In this document: in pieces, positions 4,250 through 19,319 of the stretch
Numbering within the stretch: the stretch's first letter is position 1
How the letters are laid out: each line of letters opens with the position of its first letter
From: a virus
Virus record (IMG/VR): IMGVR_UViG_3300043452_000029
Location: 1-20,557 of that record
Reading direction: 5' to 3' (one strand)
Length of the DNA: 20,557 bases
Notes under the pieces: generated by a model
What the model was told of the DNA's origin: nothing
Seen by the model: the letters and a program-made list of their open reading frames with translations, nothing else
Database searches by the model: none
Translations under genes and position numbers: made by a program

Positions 4250-4250
4250 A

Positions 4251-4778: not shown

Positions 4779-4779
4779 A

Positions 4780-6525
4780 TTAGGCGGTTTCAGCGTTAAT
4801 TATTACACGTCTCATCATTTCCTTAAACCAAGCTTCGACATCATCTTGTGTCATACCTTCATAAGCATTTTGAGCTACATTTATTCCTCCTTTATTGAAA
4901 GCATCAATACGAATATCTATTTTACGTATTTGATTGGCAGAACCAGCTACTCTGTTTACATCATCCCCTTGCTTTTTCTTTTTGCCGTCTGGAGTTAGCT
5001 TACCATCAATAACTGGAGGTTTTAATAATGGGCTTTGCGGTTTGTTTTCTGTTGCTGATTTTGGTTCTGTTCTAGCGGCTTTTTCTCCTGGTGTAACTAA
5101 GTTGTTTAATTCTCTAAATTGCTTGATTTTGTCAAGTCCTTTTTGAGCTAAACCCGTTGGGTCTATTTTAGCTGCTAATTCCAATATTTGCTGTAAAGGC
5201 TTTAATAAGGCATCAAACAAAACGAGTCCTATTCTCTTTAAACCTCCCACAATTCCATCCGTTTGAAACGCTTTTTTAATGCTTTCCCAATGATCATAAA
5301 CCGATTTAAAAGCACTTACTACCATTCCTACAGGACCTAAAAATACAATTAAAGCAGCTCCCCATTCATCCCATTTATTTATCGCAAGAACAATAACAGC
5401 TATCAAAGCAGCTATTCCTATAACAATTAAACTTACAGGATTGGCGTTTAATGCAATGTTCCAAAGCCATTGTGCAGCAGTTGCTATTTTTGTAGTAATT
5501 CCAAGTGATTTTAAAGTACTGTATAATCCTCCAAATAATCCAGTAATTTCGTTTATAGTACTTGCACCTGCTCCAAATGCTTCAATAGAAGGCATCCACG
5601 CACCAACTCCGTCAGCGATTGAAGTTTGTAAATTAGCTACCCATGTTTTCAAGCCTTCGTCAGTTTGTTTAAAAGATTCTAATTTATTTGGGTCAAGTTC
5701 CATAGTTCCTAATCCTAAAATAAAGCCCATACCAGCATCTTCACCGGCTCCTTTAAAAATATCAGTTAGTGCCAATTGTTTAGCTTGAGCTGTTGCACCA
5801 TTCATTGCCTTAGAAATCATTTGAACGGCCTCAAATGAAGTTTTACCAGCCAAATCTTTTACACTCAATCCTATTCCTTTTAAGGCATCGACTTGTGTGG
5901 GTCCCATTTCTTTAAGCGATAAATTAGCCTCTTTGATGGAATCAATTGCCTTGTCTGAAAAAATACCCTGTTTGCCTGCGTTAGTCATAATGGCTAACAT
6001 TTGTGAGGCATCTAAACCAAGTTCGCGAATTTGAGGACTGTATTCCTTAAATTGGTCAAGCATATCACCATTAAGATTCGCTCCTTTTTGATAACCAGCT
6101 TCAAGTATAGCCAGATTGCTTTCAAAAGTTCCTCCAAGCTGTTTAGTCATTGCATTGGCCGATTTTGCAATTTCTAAACTATCCTCGCCATAAACCTTGC
6201 TAATTTGATGTACTTTTTTATTCACTTCCTCCAAATTGCTCACGTCCATTTGCTGTAATGCAGTCTTGGTATTATTGATTTCTTTAGTAAAATCTAATGA
6301 CTCAGATACTTTATCGAATAGTTCAGACATCTGATTTATTTTAACCGGGTCAAATGCTTCGCCAATGTTTGAAAAAACTTTGATTTGTGACATGTTGAAG
6401 CTTTTCAATTTACCTTCCATTTTCTCCGTGGTACTTGATAGCTTCGCCTGAACCTGCGACAATTTGTTGTTAAACATTTTGTCGCCAAGCTCCATCATCA
6501 ACTCTAATTTTGATTTTTTACCCAT
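4780..6525 (-). CDS. Tail tape measure protein
   Basis: A 581-residue protein with the features of phage tape measure proteins. The first 130 residues form a helical, coiled-coil-like region. The conserved 'AKSANAMTKQLG' and 'MLAIMTNAGKQGI' segments (about 120-190) belong to the PhageMin_Tail core. A hydrophobic block at about 350-385 (AQWLWNIALNANPVSLIVIG and on) is the usual membrane-inserting segment. The C-terminus has a proline/lysine-rich linker and a basic end. It sets tail length and is ejected ahead of the DNA. At about 0.15 nm per residue it predicts a tail near 87 nm, a family rule of thumb. It lies on the opposite strand to its chaperone (16121-16632) and about 10 kb away, which is unusual. 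The 112-nt gap upstream (6526-6637) has no gene but holds a plus-strand -7 box. Confidence 0.9.
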   Translation of the reverse strand: MGKKSKLELMMELGDKMFNNKLSQVQAKLSSTTEKMEGKLKSFNMSQIKVFSNIGEAFDPVKINQMSELFDKVSESLDFTKEINNTKTALQQMDVSNLEEVNKKVHQISKVYGEDSLEIAKSANAMTKQLGGTFESNLAILEAGYQKGANLNGDMLDQFKEYSPQIRELGLDASQMLAIMTNAGKQGIFSDKAIDSIKEANLSLKEMGPTQVDALKGIGLSVKDLAGKTSFEAVQMISKAMNGATAQAKQLALTDIFKGAGEDAGMGFILGLGTMELDPNKLESFKQTDEGLKTWVANLQTSIADGVGAWMPSIEAFGAGASTINEITGLFGGLYSTLKSLGITTKIATAAQWLWNIALNANPVSLIVIGIAALIAVIVLAINKWDEWGAALIVFLGPVGMVVSAFKSVYDHWESIKKAFQTDGIVGGLKRIGLVLFDALLKPLQQILELAAKIDPTGLAQKGLDKIKQFRELNNLVTPGEKAARTEPKSATENKPQSPLLKPPVIDGKLTPDGKKKKQGDDVNRVAGSANQIRKIDIRIDAFNKGGINVAQNAYEGMTQDDVEAWFKEMMRRVIINAETA

Positions 6526-6540
6526 ATTGTAATTTTTTTA

Positions 6541-6548
6541 TATCTTTG
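6541..6548 (+). promoter_or_regulatory. Plus-strand TAnnTTTG box in the gap before the tape measure gene
   Basis: TATCTTTG is a perfect Bacteroidota -7 element, but no TTG lies at the normal distance upstream. A transcript starting near 6554 would run antisense into the 3' part of the MuF gene, which encodes its nuclease-like domain. The gap also holds short pairs that could fold (TTAAAG at 6563-6568 with CTTTAA at 6571-6576). This is a candidate only; the box may be chance. Confidence 0.25.
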
Positions 6549-6637
6549 TGCTATCAAGTTGATTAAAGACCTTTAACATTAGCGCTCACTGCGATAAGGA
6601 ATAGCATAGAGTGAAGGTTGTATTAAGTTACGGGTGT

Positions 6638-7972
6638 TTATTTAATTTTATTCCTTACCAGCAGACCTTTACGAAAGTAAGGGTCTTCTTGTTTAGACTC
6701 GTACCAAGTCATTATTTCCAAGCCTGTAGCCGTCATTTCGCAATCCACAATTACTACTTTGTCTTGGTAATATTTGATATACCTGGACTGAAATTTATTG
6801 TATATTTTTTTACCCGGATTGTTGTACCAAACTTCATCAGGATTTGCAATTAAATCCTTGACGTGTGCAAATAATTGATGTCTATTTTCTTGTTTGCTTA
6901 AATATTTACCTACTACGTGCCTGTTGAAATTGTCTTCTTTCAGGATTATTTTTCTATCAAAATAATCTTTGAAGCGCATAAACTTCTCTTTTTCTACGGT
7001 TTTGAATAACTCTTTTACGTTCCCTCCAGTAATACTATTGTCAAGTTTTATAGGATTTAAATCTGATTTAAACGAATCCCATTTTAGCAGATCATATTTA
7101 TCAAAAGTCATTTCATTAAGCTTTTCGGGCATTCCTTTGATGTCGCTGTAAAACTGTTTTTTGGTAAAAACCTGCTTCAAATCGGCACGATTGATTTCAA
7201 ATTGCGAATCCTTCCATTTCGGGTCAGCGGCTTGCATTAGTTCCTGACCAACCGCACCGCTTGTTACTTCTTTTGGCTTTTTGTTAGTTTGCAACATTTC
7301 GCAACGACAACCGTGACCATTCGGAGGCCAAAGCTTCATTGCTTCTTTATCACTTAAATTAAAAACTTTACCTTCTAATTTAGAGTGTTGGCTTCTTACT
7401 TTTGAATCTCCAGCCGTTTGATATTCCACAAAAGGGAAGTCATCCTTTTCAGCCATAAAACGATGGTATTGTGCGGTGTTTTGTCCTACTGCAATAGATA
7501 GATTGTATTCGGATTGCAGATAATTTTTATTGAATTCGCTAACCCTTTCACTCGCTAATTTTTCAAAATCAGCATAAGAACGGATTTCGTTTTTCTCTTT
7601 GTCAATCAGTAAATCACTCATTGCTGCCAATCGTGCTTCTGTTTTCGATTCCGAAAACTCGAATAAATTATACTCCATCATTTGGTATGCTAAAGTATCG
7701 GGCGTGTTCCATCCAGTTGTAACTCCAAACCCCGATTTTAAACCGCCTACTAATTCCAAAGCTTCAGCAACAATTAATTGTCCTTCTGTTCCTATGGTTT
7801 TCTTTTTATTCCATATTTGACCAATCAATTGATTCGTTAAATCATCAATTATTTTTGAACTCGCTGATGCTGTAGGTACGCTAGAACCACAACAGCTATG
7901 ATGAGTAATCTCTTTCCCAAGGTTTAGCGGTTGAATGGATATCTTTTTGCTCGGGATTTTGAATTGCTTCAT
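6638..7972 (-). CDS. MuF head morphogenesis protein with C-terminal PBECR nuclease/toxin-like domain
   Basis: A 444-residue two-part protein. Residues about 90-225 are the phage Mu gpF/SPP1 gp7 head morphogenesis (MuF) domain, ending in the signature R193-x-x-H196-x-x-L and WPPNGHGCRC (215-224). MuF proteins bind the portal and are packaged in the capsid. After a linker (230-340), residues about 345-440 match the PBECR (phage barnase/EndoU/colicin E5/RelE-like) nuclease pattern: RHVVGKY (H352), R364, NPDEVW (377-382), Y391/Y401, a VVIVD strand and a C-terminal strand. Such fusions are known as MuF polymorphic toxins. Nuclease activity is inferred, not shown. The start overlaps the portal gene by 77 nt; the next in-frame Met is inside the domain, so the overlap is likely real. 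No immunity gene is evident next to it. Confidence 0.85.
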   Translation of the reverse strand: MKQFKIPSKKISIQPLNLGKEITHHSCCGSSVPTASASSKIIDDLTNQLIGQIWNKKKTIGTEGQLIVAEALELVGGLKSGFGVTTGWNTPDTLAYQMMEYNLFEFSESKTEARLAAMSDLLIDKEKNEIRSYADFEKLASERVSEFNKNYLQSEYNLSIAVGQNTAQYHRFMAEKDDFPFVEYQTAGDSKVRSQHSKLEGKVFNLSDKEAMKLWPPNGHGCRCEMLQTNKKPKEVTSGAVGQELMQAADPKWKDSQFEINRADLKQVFTKKQFYSDIKGMPEKLNEMTFDKYDLLKWDSFKSDLNPIKLDNSITGGNVKELFKTVEKEKFMRFKDYFDRKIILKEDNFNRHVVGKYLSKQENRHQLFAHVKDLIANPDEVWYNNPGKKIYNKFQSRYIKYYQDKVVIVDCEMTATGLEIMTWYESKQEDPYFRKGLLVRNKIK

Positions 7973-9257
7973 TTTTTATAAGTTTTAAAATAGCCTCCAT
8001 TATTGGTGCTGATGCTACAATTTGGTTATTTGATTGAGTTTGTTTTTTGCCAGTTATCGGTACGTTAAATGTTTTAGAAAGCCACTCTTCGTCTACGTCA
8101 AATTCTTCCATAATGCCTTTTACAATTTCCCAAAACTTAATTAGATCTATTTCTTCTTTCGATTCTATCCATTCATAAACATCATCATCAGAAATGTAGC
8201 TATAGCCTTGAGTTTGTAACAAAGGCAATAATTCATCATTGATATTAAAACCTATATTTCTTCTATCTGATTGGCTAATTTTGAAATCTAAAGAGCGTTC
8301 GTGAACTTCGGTATTGGATCGATTGGCTTCATTGCTTCCTATCGTATTAGAACCCACTAACACACCTGAAATTTCAGTAGTATTATATTCAATAAATTTT
8401 GAATACACATTGTAAGCATCGGTTCTATTAGCTTCGTCAAACTTGATAGTAGTTCCTTCAGGGAAAACACCTACTGAAGCTTCAGCTAATGCCAATAATT
8501 GTTTTTCGACATTATCGATGTGTGTAGCATTGCTATTATTGGTAGTTGCTGAAATCATTGGCATACCAAACTTTTCGCAAAATTCTGCCCATGACTGTGC
8601 TACATTTCGTTTCCAGATTAAGTTTGGAATAATATTATTGATAAGTCCTAAAGGGTCGTCTTGATTAAGTTCAATTATCCACGGCTTATTTTGTTCAGAA
8701 TCATATTCTATAAAAACTTTATCTTTTGATAAATCAGGATAAATTCTTTTTTGACTAGGTACTAAGTTTCTTGAAGGTAGAACAGAAAATTTAATTTTCT
8801 TATCGTTAAACTCTGAAAACTCAATTAATTTAGTTCCATAAAGAATAGCGTCTAATTCAATATTTAAATAACGATAGAACCATTTTTGATTAAGTAATTT
8901 GGTTGCTTCTTCATTTATATCACCTGTTTTCTGATTTCTTATTTGAAATCCAACACTTAAAGTTGCTGTCTTTCTAAGGATAACATTTTTTAAAAGTGTT
9001 CCGTCCGTTTTCAAATCATCAACTAAATCAAAATAGCGATTGTACCGTGGTGTTTCAATATGTTCAATAGCGGTTAGTGCCAAACGCCAGGATTGAATTT
9101 CTTTTCTAGAGCGGTCTTTATAAGCATTAGCAATTTGCATTATAATAGCATCAGCATTTCGTTTACCTGATTTTAAAGACTGAGTATCTGCTTTTGCTAC
9201 AGGCGCAAAACCGCCCCTGTTTCGGTTGTTAAGTATTTGTTTTGTATTCTTTCTCAT
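7896..9257 (-). CDS. Portal protein, DUF935 (Mu gp29-like)
   Basis: A 453-residue protein of the DUF935 portal family, which forms the dodecameric DNA gateway at one capsid vertex. Recognisable parts are the N-terminal 'SWRLALTAIEHIETPRYNRYFDLVDDL', the 'FRYLNIELDAILYGTKLIEF'-like segment near 128-148 (here WFYRYLNIELDAILYGTKL), 'WAEFCEKFGMPMISAT' (about 228-243), and the 'GSNEANRSNTEVHERSLDF' stretch near 305-325 in the stem/crown region. The adjacent genes are those expected: terminase and DUF1320 upstream, MuF downstream. The last 26 codons overlap the MuF gene in another frame. A TTTAAA-N5-TTTAAAC motif lies in the 55-nt gap before its start. Length is close to Mu gp29-type portals. Confidence 0.88.
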   Translation of the reverse strand: MRKNTKQILNNRNRGGFAPVAKADTQSLKSGKRNADAIIMQIANAYKDRSRKEIQSWRLALTAIEHIETPRYNRYFDLVDDLKTDGTLLKNVILRKTATLSVGFQIRNQKTGDINEEATKLLNQKWFYRYLNIELDAILYGTKLIEFSEFNDKKIKFSVLPSRNLVPSQKRIYPDLSKDKVFIEYDSEQNKPWIIELNQDDPLGLINNIIPNLIWKRNVAQSWAEFCEKFGMPMISATTNNSNATHIDNVEKQLLALAEASVGVFPEGTTIKFDEANRTDAYNVYSKFIEYNTTEISGVLVGSNTIGSNEANRSNTEVHERSLDFKISQSDRRNIGFNINDELLPLLQTQGYSYISDDDVYEWIESKEEIDLIKFWEIVKGIMEEFDVDEEWLSKTFNVPITGKKQTQSNNQIVASAPIMEAILKLIKNEAIQNPEQKDIHSTAKPWERDYSS

Positions 9258-9285
9258 AAATTATAAAATTGTGCCTTAGAATCGA

Positions 9286-9303
9286 GTTTAAACGTGTTTT
9301 AAA
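9286..9303 (-). repeat. TTTAAA-N5-TTTAAAC leader motif, copy 3 (minus orientation)
   Basis: TTTAAA at 9287-9292 and 9298-9303, spaced by 5 nt. On the minus strand the motif ends with C (complement of 9286), 28 nt before the portal ATG. It occupies the middle of the 55-nt gap between the DUF1320 stop and the portal start. Confidence 0.65.
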
Positions 9304-9312
9304 TCTAAAACA

Positions 9313-9780
9313 CTACCATTTGTTATTAGTAAACTTGTTATTGCTGCTTAATCGAAAGGAGTCTTTCACTTCGCCGGTGCTTTCGTCTTTGATTAAAGGA
9401 AGGTCGGCATTGCCTTTTCCTTCTGCCATCATTTTGAGCCATTCCAAAGCATCTTGATAGCGGTTAGAGCGATGCTCTGGAATCTTATTGGGTGCAATCG
9501 AGCAATATAAATGGTACAATGCACAATCAATAACAATCATTACAACAAAGGCGTTTCTAGTATCAATTTGTTCTCCTGGATTATCGCCTTCAGCTGGTTC
9601 TAGTAATGGTGTGAAAATCAAAGCCACGTCATAACGCCCGGCTAAATAGTTTTTGATTTGAGCAATTGCCATTTGTTCTGCACTCAATAGCTTGGTTTCG
9701 CTGTAATTTTCAAGCAAAATGTTTTTGATTTCGGTACGAATCAAAACAGCGTAATCGGTCTCTTTTATAAATCGGTTCAT
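9313..9780 (-). CDS. DUF1320 protein (Mu gp36-like)
   Basis: A 155-residue protein with the DUF1320 layout: an N-terminal FIKETDYAVLIR helix, then 'AEQMAIAQIKNYLAGRYD' (about 35-52), which is the family's hallmark, followed by 'MIVIDCALYHLYCSI' and 'RYQDALEWLKMMAEGK'. Mu gp36-type proteins are thought to act at the head-tail connector. The start codon overlaps the terminase large-subunit stop (9780), and the portal gene follows. In Mu this family lies downstream of the major capsid gene; here it sits between terminase and portal, which marks a rearranged gene order. The C-terminus is polar and asparagine-rich. Confidence 0.82.
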   Translation of the reverse strand: MNRFIKETDYAVLIRTEIKNILLENYSETKLLSAEQMAIAQIKNYLAGRYDVALIFTPLLEPAEGDNPGEQIDTRNAFVVMIVIDCALYHLYCSIAPNKIPEHRSNRYQDALEWLKMMAEGKGNADLPLIKDESTGEVKDSFRLSSNNKFTNNKW

Positions 9781-11354
9781 TAGAATCTATTTTTGTTATT
9801 TTTTAATAATTCTTTACGGGATGTGGCTTTAGGTTCAAATTTGGTTACGAATGATATTTTATTAACCTGTGCTATTCCGGACTGTAAAAAATCGGGTCCG
9901 TCATCATTTGCACCGCTCCCTTTTTCAAATGAATACAATTGGTCTTCCATAGTTTGAAAGTCATTATTGCCTCTATATTTGGCATTAAAGAATACATTTA
10001 GTCTTTCAAAATAACCCGCCATACTTTCGATACGATCAAACTTATCAATCTTACTTTTTTTATCTGCAGTAACTGGAATGTACCAACCTCGCAAATCGCC
10101 TTCGACATCAAAGTCAGAAACAAAATCATCCATTGCAAATAAACCCTCAATCATATATCGGATGTTTTGATCTAAAAGTTTGTCGTCTTCTACAAGGTCA
10201 TAGAGCCATTGTGCTAATATCTTTCTTGATGTTTTTCGTAAAAAACAATAGATTAAATGAAACTCACGTCCTTTTTTACCAATCAATCCCATTCCTTTGT
10301 AATCTCCTGCATCTTTATAACTTAAATCGCCATAGAAACAAAGGGCATCGTACTGATCGAGTGGTAACATATCTTTGTATTGGATTTGTTCAGGTTTGAA
10401 TATTTCTCCATCCTGTATGTGCGTATGCTGATATTCACGCATAAACGAACGATAGGGCGTTTCTTCAAACTTTTCACGCCAATATTGAGAGTTTGTTTTT
10501 TCTGGCCATGTTGGTTCGAAAGTGTGTAAATCTTTAACCGCTTTGGCAGTAACTATAAAGTGTTTTATTTTACGTTTTACAGCTTTAGCTTTCTCGTTAA
10601 TTCGCTCAAATTCTTGCTTTAGTAAATTGATAATACAGTTTTTGTGAAAGTTGTTATTAGCAACAATGAAGCGTTGTCTCAAACCTCCTTCGTCAAAACA
10701 GCCTCTTAAATCCTCCCAAGCCCATTCGTAAGCTTCACGTGAAAGCTTATCATTCTTTACTCTTTTTCGAGTATCAGCATCATCCATTAAAATATAATCG
10801 GGGCGGTTTTCCTCCTCGCTCTCTCCACGGGGTGACTGACCGATACTCATTGCTTTGAATTTTACACCATCAGTCGTTGTAAAATCTCCATTAGTCCAGT
10901 CGCCATAATTAAATCGTTTGCCATAATCGTTAATCAATCGGGTATTCGATTTTAATTGTGCTTGTATTTTACCAATCAATTTTTTGGCTTTTGGGTCGGT
11001 TTGACCAATCAAAAGCATATAGAATAAATCCTTTGTGAAGTATAAAAACAAAGGAATTCCCATTCCTAAAAGAACTGATTTTGCACCTGAACGGTATATT
11101 TCACCAAGTACGCTACAAATTTTGTTGTTAATGATTATGTCAGCTAATTCAACATGATAAGGCGCACAAGGACTTTTGGCATAGTTTGGAAAGTAATATT
11201 CAAACCATTTTATATAATCGCCTTCCAGCCTTTTGATACGGTTGAGTTTATCAATAGGCTTTTCATTGATGTCGATTGTTGTAGCTTTCTTGATCCTAAC
11301 ACAATGCGCATCGTATTCCTTTATCAGTTTTTCCCATTTTGGACTCATTGCCAT
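9780..11354 (-). CDS. Terminase large subunit (packaging ATPase-nuclease)
   Basis: A 524-residue motor protein that pumps DNA through the portal and cuts it. The ATPase domain has a deviant Walker A, YRSGAKS (87-93), typical of terminases, and a Walker B, YILMDDAD (187-194). A coupling-type 'VANNNFHKN' segment (231-239) follows. The RNase H-like nuclease domain is seen in 'FYGDLSYKDAGDYKGMGLIG' (340-359, D343 as metal ligand), an acidic IEG at 402-404, and 'NDDGPDFLQSG' (483-493). All key residues appear intact. The gene starts within the stop region of the small subunit gene and ends overlapping DUF1320 by 1 nt, showing tight coupling. Length is normal for the family. Confidence 0.92.
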   Translation of the reverse strand: MAMSPKWEKLIKEYDAHCVRIKKATTIDINEKPIDKLNRIKRLEGDYIKWFEYYFPNYAKSPCAPYHVELADIIINNKICSVLGEIYRSGAKSVLLGMGIPLFLYFTKDLFYMLLIGQTDPKAKKLIGKIQAQLKSNTRLINDYGKRFNYGDWTNGDFTTTDGVKFKAMSIGQSPRGESEEENRPDYILMDDADTRKRVKNDKLSREAYEWAWEDLRGCFDEGGLRQRFIVANNNFHKNCIINLLKQEFERINEKAKAVKRKIKHFIVTAKAVKDLHTFEPTWPEKTNSQYWREKFEETPYRSFMREYQHTHIQDGEIFKPEQIQYKDMLPLDQYDALCFYGDLSYKDAGDYKGMGLIGKKGREFHLIYCFLRKTSRKILAQWLYDLVEDDKLLDQNIRYMIEGLFAMDDFVSDFDVEGDLRGWYIPVTADKKSKIDKFDRIESMAGYFERLNVFFNAKYRGNNDFQTMEDQLYSFEKGSGANDDGPDFLQSGIAQVNKISFVTKFEPKATSRKELLKNNKNRF

Positions 11355-11785
11355 TAGCCTTCCTGATTAATTTTAAACAAAATGAACTGTTTGTGATATT
11401 CTGTAAATAGCACAGCTGTTTTTGGGTCTTGATCTGCCATCCAGTTATCGAACTCTTTGAAAACAGAAAAGACAATTTGCACACTTGTGCTACTGGATAA
11501 TGTTTCGATTACCTTGTTAATCTTTGCTAGTGCATCTGCATCAATAAGGGAAACGCCACCTTCAGCAACTGTTTTTAATTCTTTAATTAGTATTTCCCGA
11601 ATTTTATGGGGCGATGCTAACATTTCGGCACGCTTGTTTTCCCAACGGCCGTCTTTTCTCCATTTTGACAAAGTTTGTTCCGATACGTCAAGTTGTTCGG
11701 AAATGGCTTTTGCCGTCATTCCGTCTTCAACAAACATCTTTTCGGCCATTACTTTTTTCGCCTGATTGGTAAGCAAATTTGACAT
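11354..11785 (-). CDS. Terminase small subunit, HTH DNA-binding (DUF1804/gpP-like)
   Basis: A 143-residue protein. I chose the ATG at 11785 (MSNLLTNQAKKVMAEKMFVE) over an in-frame ATG at 11836. The upstream 17 residues are hydrophobic and unlike the family, and the promoter-like box at 11807-11814 would lie inside them. Residues about 22-50 form a clear helix-turn-helix, 'MTAKAISEQLDVSEQTLSKWRKDGRWENKR', as in terminase small subunits and DUF1804. The C-terminal half is helical and would mediate oligomerisation. It recognises phage DNA for packaging and hands it to the large subunit, whose gene directly follows. It is the first gene of the minus-strand late operon. Confidence 0.85.
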   Translation of the reverse strand: MSNLLTNQAKKVMAEKMFVEDGMTAKAISEQLDVSEQTLSKWRKDGRWENKRAEMLASPHKIREILIKELKTVAEGGVSLIDADALAKINKVIETLSSSTSVQIVFSVFKEFDNWMADQDPKTAVLFTEYHKQFILFKINQEG

Positions 11786-11806
11786 GTTTTTATAGTGATT
11801 TAAATG

Positions 11807-11814
11807 CAAAAATC
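11807..11814 (-). promoter_or_regulatory. Candidate late promoter -7 box, leftward (terminase operon)
   Basis: On the minus strand this reads GATTTTTG, one base off TAnnTTTG. Transcription would start near 11800, about 15 nt before the chosen terminase ATG. No TTG lies at the usual -33 spacing, as would be expected of an activator-dependent late promoter. The box centre is about 41 bp from the centre of the dyad at 11841-11862. Confidence 0.35.
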
Positions 11815-11840
11815 CCATTAAATAAAGGCTTAACACTTAA

Positions 11841-11862
11841 TTGTTGCAACCCTTGCGAACAA
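11841..11862. promoter_or_regulatory. Imperfect dyad in the divergent late promoter region (operator candidate)
   Basis: TTGTTGCAA (11841-11849) pairs with TTGC and AACAA (11853-11856 and 11858-11862), with one unpaired G at 11857 and a 3-nt centre. The core GTTGCAAC is itself a palindrome. It lies at the midpoint of the 127-nt gap between the divergent late operons, nearly equidistant from the two -7 boxes. A phage late activator analogous to Mu C or Mor is a plausible ligand; this is inference. Confidence 0.45.
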
Positions 11863-11887
11863 TTTTTTATGCCCTATTTTATCCTCA

Positions 11888-11895
11888 CATCTTTG
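11888..11895 (+). promoter_or_regulatory. Candidate late promoter -7 box, rightward (capsid operon)
   Basis: CATCTTTG is one base off TAnnTTTG. A start near 11902 would leave a leader of about 11 nt before the ATG at 11913. There is no TTG at normal -33 spacing. Its centre is about 40 bp from the centre of the dyad, mirroring the leftward box. Confidence 0.35.
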
Positions 11896-11912
11896 CTGAA
11901 AAGTTTTAGAAA

Positions 11913-13022
11913 ATGATTTTTAGAGTCCAAGAAAATACTATCACAGCTTACGGTACAATATGGTCTGGAAATGGGATGGAATTTGTTTCATTACTTTCTC
12001 TAGTAGAAGCCAAACATAAAGAGATTACTATAAAGCTTCATACTTATGGAGGTTCTGTTTTTGATGGTAACCTAATGGCAAATGCACTAAGAGATTCTAA
12101 GTCTAAAATAAGACTGGAAATTGTTGGTATTGCTGCATCAATGGGTTTTGTAATATCATTATATCTCAAAGATGTTTACATGGTTTCTAATGGTTATTTA
12201 ATGGCACACGCTCCCTCTGGATATACAGAAGGAACAGCATTAGATCATGAAAACAATGCTAAGTTGTTGCGTTCCATTGAAAAAAACTTCATCAAAATTC
12301 TTATTGAGAAAACAGGGAAAACAGAAAGCTATGTAAAGAAATGGCTTGTAGGTGATAACTGGATGGATGCTGAAGAAGCTAAAAAAGAAGGCTTAATTAA
12401 AGACTTCTTAGACCCTGAAACTGAAACGGAAGATTTTAATCCTGAACAATTAGGAATGACCGAAACCTATAACCGTTTTTCTGCTTTACTGAATCCAAAA
12501 AATGATTTACATAATAATTTATCAGATACTATGAAAAAACCAATTATTGAAGCTCTAGCCTTAACTGGTGTAAATGAGCAAAGTTCGGAGACAGCGATTA
12601 TTGATGCTGTTAATGCAAAGTTTGCTGCTGAAAAGTCAGAACTTCAAGGCAAGCTAGATGCCGAAATTAAAAAGCGTGAAACTGCCGAAGAATCATTAAA
12701 AGCCCAAGGCAAAGCAGCTATTACGGCTGTTGTTGAAGCAGCTAAAAAAGCGGGTAAAATTACTCAAGACCAAGTGGCTACTTATGAAAGTATTGCTGAA
12801 GCTTCAGGAATTGAAGCTTTAAACATTGTTCTTGGTGCTATTCCAGCCCGTAATCCTATCTCTTCACAAATACAATCACATGGTAAAACGGATGCAGTTT
12901 TAGGTCGTGAGGAATGGGATTTTGACAAATGGCAAAAAGAAGATCCAAAAGCCTTAGAAGCTATGGCTGGAAAAGAACCAGAAAAATTCAAAGAATTGTT
13001 TAACGCAAAATATAAAAAATAA
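11913..13022 (+). CDS. ClpP-like head maturation protease fused to scaffold
   Basis: A 369-residue protein with two parts. Residues 1-165 are a ClpP-family (S14) serine protease: YGGSVFDG (45-52, oxyanion GG), GIAASMGF (72-79, nucleophile S76), MAHAPSG (97-103, H99) and GDNWMDAEEAKKEGLI (147-162, probable D148). Residues about 207-369 form a charged, alanine-rich coiled coil (KSELQGKLDAEIKKRETAEE) with a basic C-terminus (FNAKYKK), typical of a capsid scaffold. It assembles inside the procapsid with the coat protein and then degrades the scaffold. An internal ATG at 12531 could give a scaffold-only product, as with Mu I and Z. It is the first gene of the plus-strand late operon, and its stop overlaps the capsid ATG (TAATG). 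Confidence 0.88.
   Translation: MIFRVQENTITAYGTIWSGNGMEFVSLLSLVEAKHKEITIKLHTYGGSVFDGNLMANALRDSKSKIRLEIVGIAASMGFVISLYLKDVYMVSNGYLMAHAPSGYTEGTALDHENNAKLLRSIEKNFIKILIEKTGKTESYVKKWLVGDNWMDAEEAKKEGLIKDFLDPETETEDFNPEQLGMTETYNRFSALLNPKNDLHNNLSDTMKKPIIEALALTGVNEQSSETAIIDAVNAKFAAEKSELQGKLDAEIKKRETAEESLKAQGKAAITAVVEAAKKAGKITQDQVATYESIAEASGIEALNIVLGAIPARNPISSQIQSHGKTDAVLGREEWDFDKWQKEDPKALEAMAGKEPEKFKELFNAKYKK
12531..13022 (+). CDS. Possible internal-start scaffold product
   Basis: Met207 of the protease-scaffold gene (MKKPIIEALALTG) falls exactly where the protease part ends and the coiled-coil scaffold begins. It is preceded by an A/T-rich stretch like other starts here. Initiation at this codon would give a 163-residue scaffold with no protease, matching the nested gene plan of Mu (I and Z) and lambda (C and Nu3). 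The position is seen in sequence; use of the codon is inferred. Confidence 0.35.
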   Translation: MKKPIIEALALTGVNEQSSETAIIDAVNAKFAAEKSELQGKLDAEIKKRETAEESLKAQGKAAITAVVEAAKKAGKITQDQVATYESIAEASGIEALNIVLGAIPARNPISSQIQSHGKTDAVLGREEWDFDKWQKEDPKALEAMAGKEPEKFKELFNAKYKK

Positions 13023-13942
13023 TGGCAGAATTAGTTGACGGATTATGGCTTGAACAATTTGTAGAGCCTCAGCTTTTAGAAGAATTTAGAAACTATAAGG
13101 ATGACTTTATAGGGACTTTCAAAGCGCCTTCAGAGGATGCAATTGATAAAGATGGTATTAAGTTCAATAAGTTGATTAATGAAATCAAATTTCATGTCAA
13201 CAAGGATACTGCTTTCGAACCAGTTGACATTCCTAATAAAAAGGGTTTAGTTGAGTGGGATAAATTAGATACAGACTTAACTGTAGTATCTGATAAATCA
13301 ATGCGAGCTCTAGCTTTTGATAAAGAAAGTGAATTAAGAAGATTGCATAATGAAGCCTTTAGAATGGGTGTTCGAGATTATGCGTTGAGAAAAATTGCTC
13401 CAAAAGCGAATACTTCAGGAACTCCAATTTTAAGAACAACTGGAGAAGATGATGGGACTGGAAGAAAGAAATTGAAGTATTCTGATATGATTAAATATTA
13501 CAGCGTACTTGAAGGTTTGAATCTTACAGATTGGGCTCAAGCATTTATGATTCTTTGTGCAGAACACAGACAAGATCTTATTGAAGATCGAGGGAACACA
13601 AATAACATTCGTGACATTGAAATTGACAAGAATACAGGGGAATTAAAGCGATTTTTTAAACTAAAATTCTTTGAAAATAATAGCTCTGTAAAATTTACTG
13701 CGGGTGATGCTCCTGTTTCTGTAGGTGCTGTTTCTCAAACCACACATAGAAATGGTTCTTTGTTCTATTACGCTCCAAATATCGTACATCACATCGAAGC
13801 GGTTAAAGTGCTGTACAAACCGATGATTCAAGATACGAGAAATCCTGACCCGCAATCTGAATTACGTTTGCATTGCTACGGTCTTACAGACAAAAAGCAG
13901 GAATATGGTGTGGGTGCGTTAGTTTCTGGTATTGTTGTTTAA
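13022..13942 (+). CDS. Major capsid protein
   Basis: A 306-residue protein directly after the protease-scaffold gene, where the coat gene lies in tailed phages. It shows coat-like features: an N-terminal arm (AELVDGLWLEQFVEPQL), an extended loop region (INEIKFHVNKDTAFEPVDIP), a helical spine (LRRLHNEAFRMGVRDYALRKIAP at about 101-123), and a C-terminal strand region 'LRLHCYGLTDKKQEYGVGALVSGIVV'. The pattern suggests an HK97-fold coat of the Bacteroidota Mu-like type, although no short diagnostic motif proves it. The N-terminus follows a TAATG overlap, implying translational coupling with the scaffold. The ATG is the only sensible start. Confidence 0.85.
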   Translation: MAELVDGLWLEQFVEPQLLEEFRNYKDDFIGTFKAPSEDAIDKDGIKFNKLINEIKFHVNKDTAFEPVDIPNKKGLVEWDKLDTDLTVVSDKSMRALAFDKESELRRLHNEAFRMGVRDYALRKIAPKANTSGTPILRTTGEDDGTGRKKLKYSDMIKYYSVLEGLNLTDWAQAFMILCAEHRQDLIEDRGNTNNIRDIEIDKNTGELKRFFKLKFFENNSSVKFTAGDAPVSVGAVSQTTHRNGSLFYYAPNIVHHIEAVKVLYKPMIQDTRNPDPQSELRLHCYGLTDKKQEYGVGALVSGIVV

Positions 13943-13959
13943 ATTTTCATGTAAGTAAG

Positions 13960-14349
13960 ATGATAGATAAAACTACATTGAAGCAAGAAGCTGATAAGCT
14001 TTTTGCTTCTACATCCTACGAAGTGTTGTGGGGAAGTCCAGCAGGCGAATTTTTTACTTCTGAAAAAATTGGAAGTTTGAGCCTAAAGGAAGGTCAAAAG
14101 CTTATCAAGTTTGAAAAAACAGAAACAAAAGAGTTGAACGCAAATGACACTATTGCTAAAATCAAAGCAGTGACTTCATTGGAAGCTTTGAAAGAGTTTG
14201 AAGGCGATGAGCGTAAATCTGTTAAATCAGTTTATGACTGGAAACAAAAACAACTTACTGAAGCTATTAACGTAGTTGGTGCAAAAACGGTAGGAACTGT
14301 ACCTGCAGTTACAGGGAACGGAAACACAGACACCGACACCAAAAAGTAA
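13960..14349 (+). CDS. Small head-tail region protein (unrecognised)
   Basis: A 129-residue, lysine- and glutamate-rich protein between capsid and sheath. I chose the ATG at 13960 (MIDKTTLKQEADKLF). An earlier in-frame ATG at 13873 would add a cysteine/tryptophan-rich tail that is just the capsid gene read in another frame. It contains 'SYEVLWGSPAGEFFTSE' and a helical 'SLEALKEFEGDERKSVKSVYDWKQKQL', then a threonine-rich flexible end. Position suggests a capsid decoration, head completion or connector role; Mu has gp35 at this place. No family is recognised. Confidence 0.65.
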   Translation: MIDKTTLKQEADKLFASTSYEVLWGSPAGEFFTSEKIGSLSLKEGQKLIKFEKTETKELNANDTIAKIKAVTSLEALKEFEGDERKSVKSVYDWKQKQLTEAINVVGAKTVGTVPAVTGNGNTDTDTKK

Positions 14350-14350
14350 A

Positions 14351-14368
14351 TTTAAAACCAATTTAAAC
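14351..14368 (+). repeat. TTTAAA-N5-TTTAAAC leader motif, copy 4
   Basis: TTTAAA at 14351-14356 and 14362-14367 with a 5-nt spacer (accaa), followed by C14368. The sheath gene ATG begins at 14370. The motif fills almost the entire 20-nt gap between the two genes. Confidence 0.7.
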
Positions 14369-14369
14369 A

Positions 14370-15626
14370 ATGGCAAATTTAGATGCTGTAAAAACAAAAA
14401 AGGGCAAAGTAGGCGCTAATAGACTAAACAATGATAGGAGTGTTTCTGCTATCATTGTGGGGTCGCCTCCGATTCCTGACTTAGCATTCAAAGAAACAAT
14501 TCAAATTTTTGGTTTATATGATGCTGAGCAAAACGGTATTACTGCTGAATTTGATAAAGTAAACAACGTAAACGTGTACCGTCACATACGTGAGTTTTAC
14601 CGAAATGCAGGCGAAGGTGTTCCGTTGAACTTTATGGCGGTTGCACAAACGGAAACGTTGAAAACAATTGCTCAAGATGTTGCAGGCGATAAATTGAAAC
14701 GTTTGCTTATCGATTCGGATTACAAAGTGCGTCAATTGGCAATTGCTTTCAATCCAATCGAGGATGAAGAAAACCCAATAGTACATGTTGATGGTTTAGT
14801 TCCTGAAGTGTTTGAAAGTATTCCATTGGCGCAAGGAACTGCAGAATGGGCTTACGATCAGTTTATGCCTACTCACATTTTTATTGAGGGTTACAACCTT
14901 GGCGGAATAGCTTCTGTAGTACCTGATTTGCGAGATATTGAAAATGTCGAAGCTACAAAGGTAACTGTAGTTATTGGTCAGGACTGGCAATATGCAGAAA
15001 CCAAAACAGGCGATGCTCAAAAGTTTGCCGATGTAGGTACAGTTTTAGGAGTTTGCGCAGCTGCCGCTATTAATCAGAACATCGGTGACAATGAAGCTTT
15101 CAATTTAATGGATGCGACAAAACAGGCATGGATGGTTCCTGGACTATCGAACCACAAAAAAAATAAAGAAGTTTATGCAGAATTGCAAACTTTTGAAGAT
15201 AAAGGCTATGTATTCGGGGTTACTTATTCTGGTCTAGCAGGAGTCCGTATCAATAACGACCACGTTTGCGCACCTATCAAAATAGATGCTGAAGGCAACA
15301 TGAATGAGCATACAATAGCTTACGGTCGTGTTATGGATGATTGCGTTAGACAGATAAGAACCGCTTATCTGCCAAAAATCAAAAAGACTTATCCAGTAAA
15401 CGCAGCAGGAAAACTGCCTACTGGTGTGCGTGTACATCTTGAGACTATTGGCGACACCATTTTTACAGACATGGAAAAAGCGACCGAAATATCATCCGGA
15501 AAAACAACCATTGACCCTGATAGCGATTTGCTTGTTGCTAAAGAATTAAAGGTCTCTTTCAATGTACAGCCTACTGGTGTACTTGGATTCTTAAACGGAA
15601 CTATTAACCTAAAAGCGAAACAATAA
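14370..15626 (+). CDS. Contractile tail sheath protein (DUF2586-like)
   Basis: A 418-residue protein matching the DUF2586 sheath family of Bacteroidota Mu-like phages. Recognisable parts are VSAIIVGSPPI near residue 25-35, a first domain with 'VYRHIREFYRNAGEGVPLNFMAVA', a central insertion 'HIFIEGYNLGG', 'TKVTVVIGQDWQY' and 'VGTVLGVCAAAAINQNIGD' (the A/I-rich conserved segment near 224-242), and a C-terminal 'KELKVSFNVQPTGVLGFLNGTINL' with beta strands that link subunits. It polymerises around the tube and contracts on infection. Its gene is followed by tube, chaperone and baseplate genes, the normal order. It is the proof that the tail is contractile. Confidence 0.88.
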   Translation: MANLDAVKTKKGKVGANRLNNDRSVSAIIVGSPPIPDLAFKETIQIFGLYDAEQNGITAEFDKVNNVNVYRHIREFYRNAGEGVPLNFMAVAQTETLKTIAQDVAGDKLKRLLIDSDYKVRQLAIAFNPIEDEENPIVHVDGLVPEVFESIPLAQGTAEWAYDQFMPTHIFIEGYNLGGIASVVPDLRDIENVEATKVTVVIGQDWQYAETKTGDAQKFADVGTVLGVCAAAAINQNIGDNEAFNLMDATKQAWMVPGLSNHKKNKEVYAELQTFEDKGYVFGVTYSGLAGVRINNDHVCAPIKIDAEGNMNEHTIAYGRVMDDCVRQIRTAYLPKIKKTYPVNAAGKLPTGVRVHLETIGDTIFTDMEKATEISSGKTTIDPDSDLLVAKELKVSFNVQPTGVLGFLNGTINLKAKQ

Positions 15627-16045
15627 TGGCTACAATTACAAGAAACGGAAAAGCCTATGATAGTGCCGATGCAGAATTTTTTATAGAGGGCATTCCTATT
15701 GAAGTTACTACAGCAACTTATGGAAACGAACAGGAGCATCAATTGAATTATGGTCTTGGTTCAAATCCTACCAGTTGGAGTCGAGGCAAAAAAACGCCTA
15801 GCTGTACAATAGGAATTATGATGCATAATATTACACCTCTTGAATTGGCCGCTAAAGGAGGCAGTATTTTAGATATTCCGCCATTTTATATGATTGCGAC
15901 TTTTACCAACGAATATAACATCATTGTAACTGACAGGGTATTAATGAAGTTTCAAAACGAAGGTCGTGAAGTTACTGGCGAAATGGGTCTTAAAAAAGAA
16001 TACACAATGTTCGCTCTAAAAGTAGAATTGAACGTAGCAGCATAA
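15626..16045 (+). CDS. Tail tube protein (Mu gpM/XkdM-like)
   Basis: A 139-residue beta-rich protein directly after the sheath with a TAATG overlap. Features fit the tail tube fold: 'AEFFIEGIPIEVTTATYGNEQEHQLNYGLG' at the start (a beta hairpin), 'GKKTPSCTIGIMMHNI' and a C-terminal 'EMGLKKEYTMFALKVELNV'. Subunits stack as hexameric rings that form the DNA channel inside the sheath. It should be made in large amounts. A strong hairpin just downstream (16072-16093) could lower expression of the chaperone and later genes relative to this one. Confidence 0.82.
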   Translation: MATITRNGKAYDSADAEFFIEGIPIEVTTATYGNEQEHQLNYGLGSNPTSWSRGKKTPSCTIGIMMHNITPLELAAKGGSILDIPPFYMIATFTNEYNIIVTDRVLMKFQNEGREVTGEMGLKKEYTMFALKVELNVAA

Positions 16046-16071
16046 TTACACATTCATTTTCATTTTTCACT

Positions 16072-16093
16072 AAGCCCTCTTTTGGGAGGGCTT
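16072..16093 (+). terminator. Hairpin between tube and chaperone genes (attenuator candidate)
   Basis: AAGCCCTC (16072-16079) pairs with GAGGGCTT (16086-16093) around a 6-nt loop. Only one further T follows (T16094), so termination is probably partial. It sits in the 75-nt gap between highly expressed tube and low-level chaperone. Partial termination, or 3'-end protection of sheath/tube mRNA, would fit. Confidence 0.5.
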
Positions 16094-16109
16094 TAAATCA
16101 AATTTAAAC
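16092..16109 (+). repeat. TTTAAA-N5-TTTAAAC leader motif, copy 5
   Basis: TTTAAA at 16092-16097 and 16103-16108 with a 5-nt spacer (tcaaa), then C16109. The first copy overlaps the 3' arm and tail of the hairpin at 16072-16093. The chaperone ATG is at 16121. Confidence 0.7.
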
Positions 16110-16120
16110 AAAACCATATA

Positions 16121-16447
16121 ATGGAAAAAACAAAAACAAAAGCAGTAAGTCAAGAAACAATTGATAAAGTTGGCGGATCGGATAAATTAAGACGTGTTGA
16201 TTTACCATTAGATGATGATGGCAACGAAATTTTAGAAGTTGTTGTCTGTGTTCCTGATCGTAGAACAATGGGACAATATCTAAAGTATCAAAGTGTCAAT
16301 CCTGCTAAAGCTCAAGACATTCTCGTTAAAAACTGTTTGCTTACAGATAAAGAAACTGTTCTAGCAGATGATGCTTTATTCTTAACGTGTGTGAGTGCTT
16401 TGGCAGAAATGATTCCTATTAGAGAGAGTAAGATAAAAAAGTACTAG
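16121..16447 (+). CDS. Tail assembly chaperone, short form (gpG-type, zero frame)
   Basis: A 108-residue acidic/mixed protein (MEKTKTKAVSQETIDKVGG onward) ending KIKKY at the TAG of 16445-16447. Tail assembly chaperones bind the tape measure protein and help tube monomers assemble on it; they are not part of the virion. Its place after the tube gene and the -1 frameshift site near its 3' end fit this family. The sequence itself is highly divergent, as is usual. The middle reads as 'CVPDRRTMGQYLKYQSVNPAKAQDILVKNCL', similar in spacing to Mu gp41-like proteins. The tape measure it would serve is on the other strand at 4780-6525. Confidence 0.78.
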   Translation: MEKTKTKAVSQETIDKVGGSDKLRRVDLPLDDDGNEILEVVVCVPDRRTMGQYLKYQSVNPAKAQDILVKNCLLTDKETVLADDALFLTCVSALAEMIPIRESKIKKY

Positions 16448-16632
16448 ACGACTGTACGGGATTGATTGAAGATACTGATAAAGATATTGTTTTCAAAATT
16501 GATGCAATGATTAGTCATGTTCTTCATATCCCATTCCCGGAACAGTTGTCTGATACAGTTTGGTCAGAGAAGTGGGCGCAAGTGAAATATTTAATTGACA
16601 AGGGCATTATAGCTCCTAAAATTCCAATGTAA
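16121..16632 (+). CDS. Tail assembly chaperone, frameshifted long form (gpG-T type)
   Basis: A -1 shift at 16435-16441 joins the 107-residue N-terminal part to 63 new residues (VLDDCTGLIEDTDKDIVFKI, then DAMISHVLHIPFPEQLSDTV and on, ending APKIPM), for 170 in all. The extension has no start of its own at its beginning, yet it fills the space exactly up to the next ATG at 16632 (TAATG). Its content is plausible protein. In lambda and Mu-type tails, the ratio of short to long form made by this shift is needed for tail assembly. The long-form extension is thought to recruit tube protein. Frameshift efficiency here is not known. Confidence 0.75.
16435..16441 (+). promoter_or_regulatory. Programmed -1 ribosomal frameshift site, A AAA AAG
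   Basis: In the zero frame the codons ATA AAA AAG end in the heptamer A AAA AAG, identical to the E. coli dnaX slippery site. It lies one codon (TAC) before the zero-frame stop. Slipping back one base gives an open frame to the TAA at 16630-16632. A purine-rich AGAGAGAG lies about 10 nt upstream; a short GTAC-N9-GTAC hairpin downstream is weak. Confidence 0.8.
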
Positions 16633-17282
16633 TGGCAGTAACGGACGCATACAAACACGTATTTAATGATGTTGATACTTTTCCTCAAAATATAACAATT
16701 GATTTGGTTGCTCGTTATGCGGCGGCTTTTGGAATGATGGCGGCGGGAAAAGCAATTGAAAAAGCATTTGTTGAAAAGCAAAAAAACAACGATTACTCTT
16801 TTCAAACATTTCCGCTCCAGGAATCGAATTTTGAATATGTAAAAATGGTAATTCCTGATTTAGAACCATTGGAATTTTCGGCTGTTTTACATGGTGATCA
16901 GGGAAGCTTATTTGCACCGCCACTATTAATAAGTTTTGCTCAAGAAAAATCATTAATAGAAACGGAAGTAAATGATGATGATCCAATTATTATTGAACGT
17001 TGGGGAACTAAATCGTGGGACATCACTATAAACGGTTTGTTGATCGATTTAAAAAATAGAATTTATCCAAGTGATCAAATACGTCGTTTAAATCAGAACT
17101 GGAGATACAACGGTGTTGTAAAAGTTATAGGAACGCAATTTGAAGAAAAAGACATTGATAGTTTGTATTTCAGGTCAATCAATTTTACAGGTGTCGAAGG
17201 TTATCAGGATACATTACAATTTACAATCAATGCCAGTTCAATAAAGGCTGTAAATTTTACGCTTTTGAAACCGAATAGTTAA
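16632..17282 (+). CDS. DUF6046-like baseplate/tail protein
   Basis: A 216-residue protein. The N-terminus (MAVTDAYKHVFNDVDTF) leads to a helix-rich segment with glycine and alanine (AAAFGMMAAGKAIEKAFVEKQ). A beta-rich C-terminal half follows with 'IIERWGTKSWDITINGLLID', 'DQIRRLNQNWRYNGVVKVIG' and 'SINFTGVEGYQDTLQFTINASS'. This matches my recollection of the DUF6046 family found in Bacteroidota phage tails, next to the gpD hub. The C-terminal fold resembles the hub adaptor proteins that link tube end to baseplate (LysM-tail or T4 gp53-like). It starts by overlapping the frameshifted chaperone stop by 1 nt and couples to the hub gene the same way. Confidence 0.68.
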   Translation: MAVTDAYKHVFNDVDTFPQNITIDLVARYAAAFGMMAAGKAIEKAFVEKQKNNDYSFQTFPLQESNFEYVKMVIPDLEPLEFSAVLHGDQGSLFAPPLLISFAQEKSLIETEVNDDDPIIIERWGTKSWDITINGLLIDLKNRIYPSDQIRRLNQNWRYNGVVKVIGTQFEEKDIDSLYFRSINFTGVEGYQDTLQFTINASSIKAVNFTLLKPNS

Positions 17283-18289
17283 TGAATTATTTGTATTACA
17301 ATATTAGTATTAGAATAACCATTGCTGATAATTTACAGTTTACAGTATGTCAATCTATTCGAATTGATTCAAGTGTTCAAGTTCTTACAAATACTGCTAA
17401 AATCGAGTTACCACGTGAATTTCGTAATGCAGTTGATGAAGTTGGAAAAGCGGTTAATATTTCCGGTAAATCAATTTTAGATTTTATGAAACGTGGTGAT
17501 GCCGTTAAAATAGAATTTGGTTATGATGGTAACCTCGAAAATGAGTTCGAAGGTTACATAACAAAGATAGGTGCTGAAATGCCTTTGCTTTTAGAATGCG
17601 AAGATGAAATGTTTCAACTTAAGAAAGCTCCTCGAATAACTAAATTCATAAAGTCCGGAAAGTTAATTGATATTCTGAAAGCCGTTTTACCTGCTAAATA
17701 CACCATTGAATGCAATGCCGATTACAGCATCGGAAAATGGTTAATCGAAGATGCTACTCCTTACAATGTTTTGGATGAGCTTCGAGAAAAAGCAGGAATA
17801 AGAGCTTATTTCAAAAATCCAACTACGCTAGCCGTAGGAATGATTGTGGATTTTAAGGCAGAAACGGTTCATGAATACAATTTTAGCGAAAATGTTCGCC
17901 GTGGCAGCAGTTTGAAATTCGAGCAAAAAGAAAGTAAACCAATATTTCTAACAGTTGAAAGTAAACAGGCAAATGGAAGCGTTTTAACGGTTTCTGTCGG
18001 TGAAAAAGGTGGCGATGAAAAGACAATGAAGTTATGGCCGAATATGACAAAAGCAGAACTGCAATTGTGGGCTAACAAGCAACAAACGAGTGTTTCTTAT
18101 AGTGGCTTCGAGGGAACTTTAGACGGTTGGTGTGTTCCTAGAACCAAACCCGGACATGCAGCACAATTGTATAGGCCGATTTATAAAGACAGACATCAGG
18201 ATGGCAGGTATTTTATTGAAAGTGTTACAATTGATGTTAGCGGTTCTGAAGGAATAAAAAGAGCCAATAATTTAAGTTACAAACTATGA
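17282..18289 (+). CDS. Baseplate hub protein, gpD/Mu gp44-like
   Basis: A 335-residue protein of the late control gpD/gp44 hub type. Features: an N-terminal beta domain with 'TNTAKIELPREFRN' and 'FMKRGDAVKIEFGYDGNLENEFEGYITKI' (about 40-100), a middle domain with 'ESTDEMFQLKK'-like CEDEMFQLKK and 'NVLDELREKAGIRAYF', then a C-terminal barrel with 'WCVPRTKPGHAAQLYRP' and 'DGRYFIESVTIDVSGSEG'. Trimeric hub proteins form the platform between the tube and the spike. The order hub, spike, wedge is the same as in P2 and Mu. The end overlaps the spike gene by an ATGA. Confidence 0.82.
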   Translation: MNYLYYNISIRITIADNLQFTVCQSIRIDSSVQVLTNTAKIELPREFRNAVDEVGKAVNISGKSILDFMKRGDAVKIEFGYDGNLENEFEGYITKIGAEMPLLLECEDEMFQLKKAPRITKFIKSGKLIDILKAVLPAKYTIECNADYSIGKWLIEDATPYNVLDELREKAGIRAYFKNPTTLAVGMIVDFKAETVHEYNFSENVRRGSSLKFEQKESKPIFLTVESKQANGSVLTVSVGEKGGDEKTMKLWPNMTKAELQLWANKQQTSVSYSGFEGTLDGWCVPRTKPGHAAQLYRPIYKDRHQDGRYFIESVTIDVSGSEGIKRANNLSYKL

Positions 18290-18813
18290 GTGATTTTGAT
18301 GAAATTTTTAAGAATGCTGTAAATGGCTCAAGAAGAAAAGGAAAATTTACCCTAATAGTTGGAACTGTTAAAGCTATTGATGGTGACACTTGTACAGTTG
18401 ATAATTATGAAGATGTAAGTCTTAATGCGATAATAGATAATTTAGAAAGTCAATTTACAATTTACCCAAAAATAGGTTCTAAAGTAGTAATTGGACGGTT
18501 AGAAAATGAAGATAACGCTTTTGTATTGGGAGTTTCTGAAATCGAAAAAGTGCTTATTAAGATAGGAAATCAATCCCTAGAATTCAAAGAAGGGAATGTT
18601 ACTATAACTATAGGGAATCAGATTTTAGAAATGAAGGCCGGAAAGTTCAAAATAACGAACGGAACGGTAAGCCTTAAATCCATTTTAAACGATGGCTTTG
18701 ACCAACTAACAAAAGCGGTTCTGTTGACACCTTCGGGACCAGGGAAATTTTCAGATGCAGATATAACAGTATTTACAGATTTAAAAACTAAAACCAATCA
18801 ATTGCTAAGCTAA
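18286..18813 (+). CDS. Baseplate spike protein, gpV/Mu gp45-like
   Basis: A 175-residue protein. An OB-fold comes first (FTLIVGTVKAIDGDTCTVD, 22-40; KIGSKVVIGRLENEDNAFVLGVSE, 62-85). A beta-helix repeat region follows, with two tandem units that resemble each other: IGNQSLEFKEGN and IGNQILEMKAGK (about 91-123), then NGTVSLKSIL. This is the layout of central spikes that pierce the host outer membrane. The C-terminal 45 residues (DGFDQLTKAVLLTPSGPGKF) resemble the end of Mu gp45 relatives, but no iron-binding HxH tip is visible. It overlaps the hub gene by 4 nt (ATGA) and the next gene by 1 nt. Confidence 0.82.
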   Translation: MSDFDEIFKNAVNGSRRKGKFTLIVGTVKAIDGDTCTVDNYEDVSLNAIIDNLESQFTIYPKIGSKVVIGRLENEDNAFVLGVSEIEKVLIKIGNQSLEFKEGNVTITIGNQILEMKAGKFKITNGTVSLKSILNDGFDQLTKAVLLTPSGPGKFSDADITVFTDLKTKTNQLLS

Positions 18814-19028
18814 TGGCACTAAACGACACCGCATTTAAAAATGAAATAATTGCACTTCAGGATGAAATGATAGAGGCTGAGAATTATGATGATGCAAAGG
18901 TTATTTATGCTGAAAAATTAATGGTTGCTATAAAGAATTACATCAAATCGGGAACTGTAGTGGTAAACGTAACCACAACGGGAACGGCTACGAATCACAC
19001 AGGAACTGGAACTGGAGCAATAAGCTAA
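18813..19028 (+). CDS. Small spike-associated protein with T/G-rich C-terminus
   Basis: A 71-residue protein. The first 45 residues are helical (DTAFKNEIIALQDEMIEAENYDDAKVIYAE), and the last 25 are a low-complexity strand-like tail (TVVVNVTTTGTATNHTGTGTG). It starts at a TAATG overlap with the spike gene and is 3 nt from the wedge gene. Small proteins like this occur beside the spike gene in Bacteroidota phages. Function is not known; a role in the spike or its attachment is suggested only by position. Confidence 0.65.
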   Translation: MALNDTAFKNEIIALQDEMIEAENYDDAKVIYAEKLMVAIKNYIKSGTVVVNVTTTGTATNHTGTGTGAIS

Positions 19029-19031
19029 AAA

Positions 19032-19319
19032 ATGAGACAGGATATATTGAGAGATGAAAATGGAGCTTTGGCTTTTGCCAATGGCGATTTTTCCACTGGA
19101 CAAAGTGATCAGCAACACGTTGAAGATATTTTGGACTTGCAACCAGGGGAATTAAAAGAATTTCCTCTAGCTGGTTTTGGAGCTATCAATTATATCAAAA
19201 AAACAATTACTTCAGATGAGTTTAAACGTGATTTAAAGATTCAGTTAAACTATGATGGTTATAACAATGCAACGATTGACACTAGTAAAGGAATAGAAAA
19301 TTTAAACATTGAAATATGA
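19032..19319 (+). CDS. Baseplate wedge protein, Mu gp46 / gp25-like
   Basis: A 95-residue protein of the gpW/gp25 family. The expected order of features is present: 'DILRDENGALAFANGDFSTGQSDQQHVEDILDLQPGELKEFPLAG' (start through the conserved G-E-x-x-x-P-x-x-G turn), 'FGAINYIKK', and a C-terminal 'FKRDLKIQLNYDGY' strand. gp25-type proteins start sheath polymerisation at the baseplate. The gene sits between spike and holin, as gp46 lies just after gp45 in Mu. An ATGA overlap links it to the holin. Confidence 0.82.
   Translation: MRQDILRDENGALAFANGDFSTGQSDQQHVEDILDLQPGELKEFPLAGFGAINYIKKTITSDEFKRDLKIQLNYDGYNNATIDTSKGIENLNIEI

Follow-up and report, generated by a model that had tools for sequence, protein, structure and literature searches.

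The late genes of a Mu-like phage of Flavobacteriia are very probably expressed from one intergenic region, in which two divergent promoters share activator-type dyads, and the protein that binds this operator and activates the late promoters is, with a probability of roughly 0.78 as judged from sequence comparison, a small early protein denoted here family 6. The DNA analysed, referred to below as the window, is a 20.6-kb virus fragment with a Mu-like gene set (Portal_Mu, Mu F, Gp36, a ClpP-like protease and sheath), and its closest GenBank phage is Flavobacterium phage fF4. The initial annotation described two late operons diverging from a 127-nt gap, and this gap is real, lying at 11786-11912 between the start of TerS (minus strand, 11785) and that of the ClpP-like protease (plus strand, 11913):

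3734..11785, minus strand: leftward late operon, with TerS, TerL, Gp36-like, portal, Mu F-like (with a PBECR2 domain), tape measure, Phage_tail_S and a 171-aa protein
11913..20557, plus strand: rightward late operon, with ClpP-like protease, capsid, sheath (DUF2586) and tail genes, continuing past the end of the window

Since both operons hold tail as well as head genes, the gap serves as control region for the full set of late genes in the window; a control region common to both operons, as first proposed, thus stands, but the description of these as head operons does not. The Mu F-like head protein (window 6638-7972, minus strand) has a C-terminal PBECR2 nuclease-like domain (E 2e-12), possibly a toxin-like domain packaged in the virion.

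Within the gap, a dyad is flanked by one outward-facing promoter box on each side:

11807..11814, minus strand: leftward late promoter, -7 box GATTTTTG, with its first base (11814) at a distance of 37 bp from 11851; second in the weight-matrix ranking (29.1 bits)
11840..11863, no strand: late operator dyad ATTGTTGCAACCCTTGCGAACAAT, core GCAA-NNN-TTGC at 11846-11856, centre 11851, 21-bp unit 11841-11861
11888..11895, plus strand: rightward late promoter, -7 box CATCTTTG, with its first base (11888) at a distance of 37 bp from 11851; first in the weight-matrix ranking (36.2 bits)

The dyad reads ATTGTTGCAA-CCC-TTGCgAACAAT, with the ungapped core GCAA-CCC-TTGC centred on 11851, and its pattern is single in the window even when three mismatches are allowed (0.15 expected). 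The 9-bp imperfect dyad noted earlier at the gap centre is therefore present, but what relatives conserve is only the ungapped core GCAA-NNN-TTGC; pairing of the outer ATTGTT and AACAAT arms requires a one-base bulge and is not generally kept. The initial annotation also placed one box in each direction, about 40 bp from the dyad centre, which proves to be exactly 37 bp on either side, and it correctly observed that both boxes differ from the consensus TAnnTTTG at base 1 and that neither promoter has a TTG at the -33 position. Outward promoters that would use the TTG of a dyad arm as their -33 element, such as TTG-N19-TATTTTAT at 11854-11883, were considered and rejected, because such -7-like stretches vary in relatives while NAnnTTTGC is kept.

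Scans with TerL, a TerL profile and the protease yielded over 100 relatives that share the divergent arrangement; removal of redundancy left 83 regions, in which pairs of outward-facing -7-like boxes were scored. In 60 of the 83, the top-scoring box-to-box gap is 73, 94 or 115 bp (73 + 21n bp), as compared to a mean of 2.06 and a maximum of 7 in dinucleotide-preserving shuffles (100 sets). With a strict cut-off (sum 22 of 24), a quantised pair is found in 44 regions versus 0.1 in shuffles and at most four for any other offset triple, while loose thresholds carry a much higher background (15 in shuffles at 19). When the regions are aligned in register, a gap of 73 bp corresponds to one dyad, 94 to two and 115 to three, with dyads 21 bp apart and the outermost one 37 bp from its box on both sides. 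Self-complementarity along the gap, calculated without reference to any motif, has its maximum at base 36 in the 73 class, to which the 94 class adds a second maximum at 57 and the 115 class a third at 78; direct-repeat autocorrelation is highest at a lag of 21. On the TerL tree, dyad number has undergone nine or more changes. Deviating relatives are L019, with a gap of 93 bp, and L014 and L114, which have three dyads of the TAAAGC/GCTTTA type and yet a box spacing of 118 and 119 bp, respectively, instead of 115; the further class expected at 136 bp is represented among the aligned relatives by two poor matches only and is unsupported.

Pooling of 156 half-promoters reveals a GCAA-NNN-TTGC core whose centre precedes the box by 37 bp and which has A5/T5 tracts on either side, near absence of conservation between -21 and -1, and a box of the form NAnnTTTGC. 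The box is made up of A in 98%, TTT in 93-100%, G in 99% and a following C in 67%, a conservation due in part to selection because the sites were located by box matches, and its first base is T in only 31%, so that the deviation seen in the window is usual in the group. It conforms to the Bacteroidota sigma-A -7 box, TAnnTTTG, which in flavobacteria spans -12 to -5 (PMC9723704), and this position puts the dyad centre at about -49 of both predicted promoters. A TTG occurs exactly at the -33 position in only 28 of the 156 half-promoters, and the combination of a dyad at fixed distance with no -35/-33 element is that of Mu-type activator-dependent promoters. Free variation of the dyad and its spacing among relatives had been named beforehand as the outcome that would speak against such a switch; instead, the 37 bp are fixed on both sides and the gap shifts only by 21-bp steps that add whole dyads. 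Given this dyad-box geometry, the region is best read, as originally suggested, as two promoters that lack a -33 element and share an activator site, though with the amendment that the shared site is not always a single dyad, as relatives often have two or three.

A weight matrix for the composite half-promoter, built without close relatives, places the two half-promoters of the region at the top in the window, the third site scoring 10.9 bits. For nine relatives, whose early and late stretches were scanned, the divergent region is likewise the best place, and so it is across the complete genome of fF4, where the next site scores 16.4 versus 27.2 and 24.0 for the region itself. Because this region is the only strong match of the composite motif in the DNA scanned, a single switch appears to govern the late genes as a whole.

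The candidate for the protein that operates this switch is encoded near the start of the window:

221..622, plus strand: GemA-like gene, directly upstream of the candidate activator gene, in the GemA-Mor order of Mu
699..929, plus strand: candidate late activator (family 6), 76 aa, with four predicted helices, an HTH-like core and C-terminal QLTLF

Support for GemA is weak, consisting of a Pfam match in one homologue (E 2e-4, below the cut-off). Early regions of 30 relatives have few gene families in common, and family 6, which had no previous annotation, is present in all 30 when six-frame HMM searches are included. Its gene either follows the GemA-like gene, as Mor does in Mu, or occupies the position of C as the final gene ahead of the convergent operon. 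The early block including family 6 is inverted in the phage of L018 (early region L143) with respect to other phages, and in L037 the family 6 gene is also reversed in orientation, the two-dyad late region being kept in both. In the window, a small DUF3850/ASCH-domain RNA-binding-like protein (930-1175, plus strand) adjoins the candidate gene at its 3' end. AlphaFold predicts four helices for family 6 (pLDDT 84), for which Foldseek finds no significant structural relative and VIA-align none above noise, and Pfam detects in it neither an HTH or other recognised DNA-binding family nor a match to Mor; DNA binding by family 6 hence has no independent support from the Foldseek and Pfam searches. 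A resemblance to the RpoN box (PDB 2o8k, E 0.08) disappeared with a larger alignment and in Foldseek. The Mor/C family (PF08765) is over its cut-off in none of the 30 related phage records, one of which gives a partial 18.6-bit match, nor in four distant phages, so the late activator is probably not a Mor/C homologue.

What ties family 6 to the operator is their co-divergence. Family 6 was paired with the operator in 64 phages, and distance correlations were calculated on 50 phages as Mantel correlations, from which shared ancestry is not fully removed. Pairwise distances of family 6 and operator correlate with r 0.69, and the correlation is 0.54 given TerL, 0.58 given TerS and 0.60 given the protease; conversely, given family 6, the operator correlates at 0.05 with TerL, 0.014 with TerS and -0.08 with the protease, though all three flank it. 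Early proteins, including the repressor (0.016), reach 0.22 at most given family 6, which thus tracks operator divergence better than every other gene tested, and in phages with close TerL the Spearman correlation of family 6 and operator is 0.77. The recognition helix of family 6 tracks the operator no better than helix 1 does, and the number of dyads follows family 6 clades on inspection, no more strongly than it follows the TerL tree (6 versus 7 changes, in the same phages). From this co-divergence and the operator pattern we infer that family 6 binds operator DNA and that it activates rather than represses.

The promoters and the operator could be as described and the dyad nevertheless be bound by TerS, a repressor, another protein or a host factor, with family 6 being a replication or transposition protein that uses its tail to bind the clamp. 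Such an assignment would suit the HTH of TerS, the aptness of a QLxLF tail for replication proteins, the two early hankyphage proteins with tails of this kind, and the lack of a recognised DNA-binding family in family 6, but operator divergence is explained by family 6 and, once this is taken into account, little or not at all by TerS or the repressor, which were discarded as operator binders for this reason; nor would a host factor yield differing operators in phages of related hosts. We therefore regard another binder as rather unlikely. Still less probable is that the dyad is a repressor site, at which family 6 or another protein keeps both late promoters off in the early phase. A central operator is able to silence divergent promoters and a dyad alone does not separate activator from repressor, yet the site is separated from the -7 box by about 27 bp and overlaps with neither box nor start, the -33 element is absent in most regions, and the 37 bp held constant on both sides despite added 21-bp units are needed for contact with polymerase and not for blocking, all of which disfavours repression. 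That the dyad lies by chance between two ordinary constitutive promoters, as A-T-rich DNA with its many TTTG boxes and the weakness of one imperfect dyad as evidence might suggest, can be dismissed in view of the gap shuffles (60 of 83 against 2.1), the offset-triple controls and the palindromicity at the predicted centres.

The mechanism proposed for activation by family 6 builds on features established by sequence comparison, namely the box-dyad-box geometry, the 21-bp quantum, the uniqueness of the region in the parts scanned, and a family 6 that is universally present and co-diverges with the operator. The outward promoters would consist of a -7 box of sigma-A type (NAnnTTTGC) without a functional -33 element, and would for want of the latter depend on an activator. 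A family 6 dimer on the 21-bp dyad centred at 11851, about -49 from both predicted starts, would point its two faces outward and bring host RNA polymerase to both promoters, contact with polymerase at fixed distance and helical phase replacing the -33 element, and all late genes of both operons would be switched on together, which might, as first suggested, help to keep packaging proteins and capsid in balance. In relatives, two or three dimers would sit 21 bp (two helical turns) apart, the outermost keeping its distance and face. If this is true, the divergent promoters here share one to three activator dimers in a quantised array, and the 64 operator-protein pairs with their 21-bp step changes provide a natural experiment on the placement of an activator dimer relative to polymerase. 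The result would be a description of a one-site late switch in a large group of phages of Bacteroidota, on whose gene control the literature searched appears to be silent, with a concrete candidate activator named for a gene family without annotation.

The nearest functional parallels are Mor at Pm and C at the late promoters of Mu, where, as is probable here, a Mu-like phage employs a small middle-phase activator on a dyad upstream of promoters with a poor -35 and has its activator gene beside GemA or last before the late genes. Mor binds as a dimer to a dyad whose centre is at -43.5 relative to a promoter that has no -35, compared with about -49 here, and Mu has four late promoters (PMC4461284) that are separate, face the same direction and each have their own C site, whereas a single region here serves two divergent operons; unlike in Mu, sites occur in one to three copies at 21-bp steps and with a Bacteroidota -7 box. 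By its sequence features, the switch is one that would work like Mor/C while lying outside that family and having a different architecture. Flavobacterium phage fF4 (Winoviridae) shares the divergent region, in which its boxes are separated by 73 bp, and encodes family 6 at 7740-7979; the paper on this phage makes no mention of promoters, late control or an activator. The same divergent TerS/protease layout is found in hankyphage p00, Peternella_1, P. gingivalis phages and TCUEAP3, in which more distant Bacteroidota Mu-like phages family 6 was not detected and the clean 73/94/115 spacing was not seen.

Most family 6 homologues end in QL(S/T)LF, and a QLxLF-type motif is present in the last 22 residues of 46 of the 64 proteins, as compared to 4 of the 783 ORFs outside the family; shuffled tails give 0.6. 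C-terminal QL(S/D)LF is a published bacterial clamp-binding motif (PMC9690074), and the tail of family 6 may accordingly be predicted to bind the host sliding clamp. In T4, C-terminal clamp-binding motifs on gp33 and gp55 couple late transcription to replication (PMC7892883; PMC2988020), and most family 6 proteins resemble these factors in having such a motif, their role as late factor being putative. T4 differs in having its own clamp (gp45), a sigma-like gp55 and no sequence-specific upstream operator, whereas the tail here is on a putative operator-binding protein and the predicted partner is the clamp of the host. It is a tentative proposal, which we consider somewhat doubtful, that family 6 combines an operator-specific late activator with a host clamp binder, such that neither late operon would be transcribed unless the phage DNA is replicating; coupling of late expression to replication is in keeping with the transpositional replication of this phage. 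The motif is missing in some family 6 members (L050, L052, L083 and L093 among others) and is thus dispensable in some phages. A review in 2010 found no natural clamp-coupled transcription besides the T4 type (PMC2988020), and a working clamp tail would answer this open question of the T4 field with a second, independently evolved case.

Tails of this type are also seen on other small early genes. In hankyphage p00 (L151, BK010646), genes at 10177-10446 and 5244-5642 end in the clamp-binding-like QLSLF and QLTLF, respectively. The former, called 'transposase' in some records and with relatives in P. gingivalis phages, stands as the final gene ahead of the convergent head operon, a C-like position, and has an HTH-like stretch; it was considered as a family 6 homologue and set aside, as the profile comparison was not significant. 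In L124, a second small early ORF (7749-8021), unrelated to family 6, likewise ends in QLTLF.
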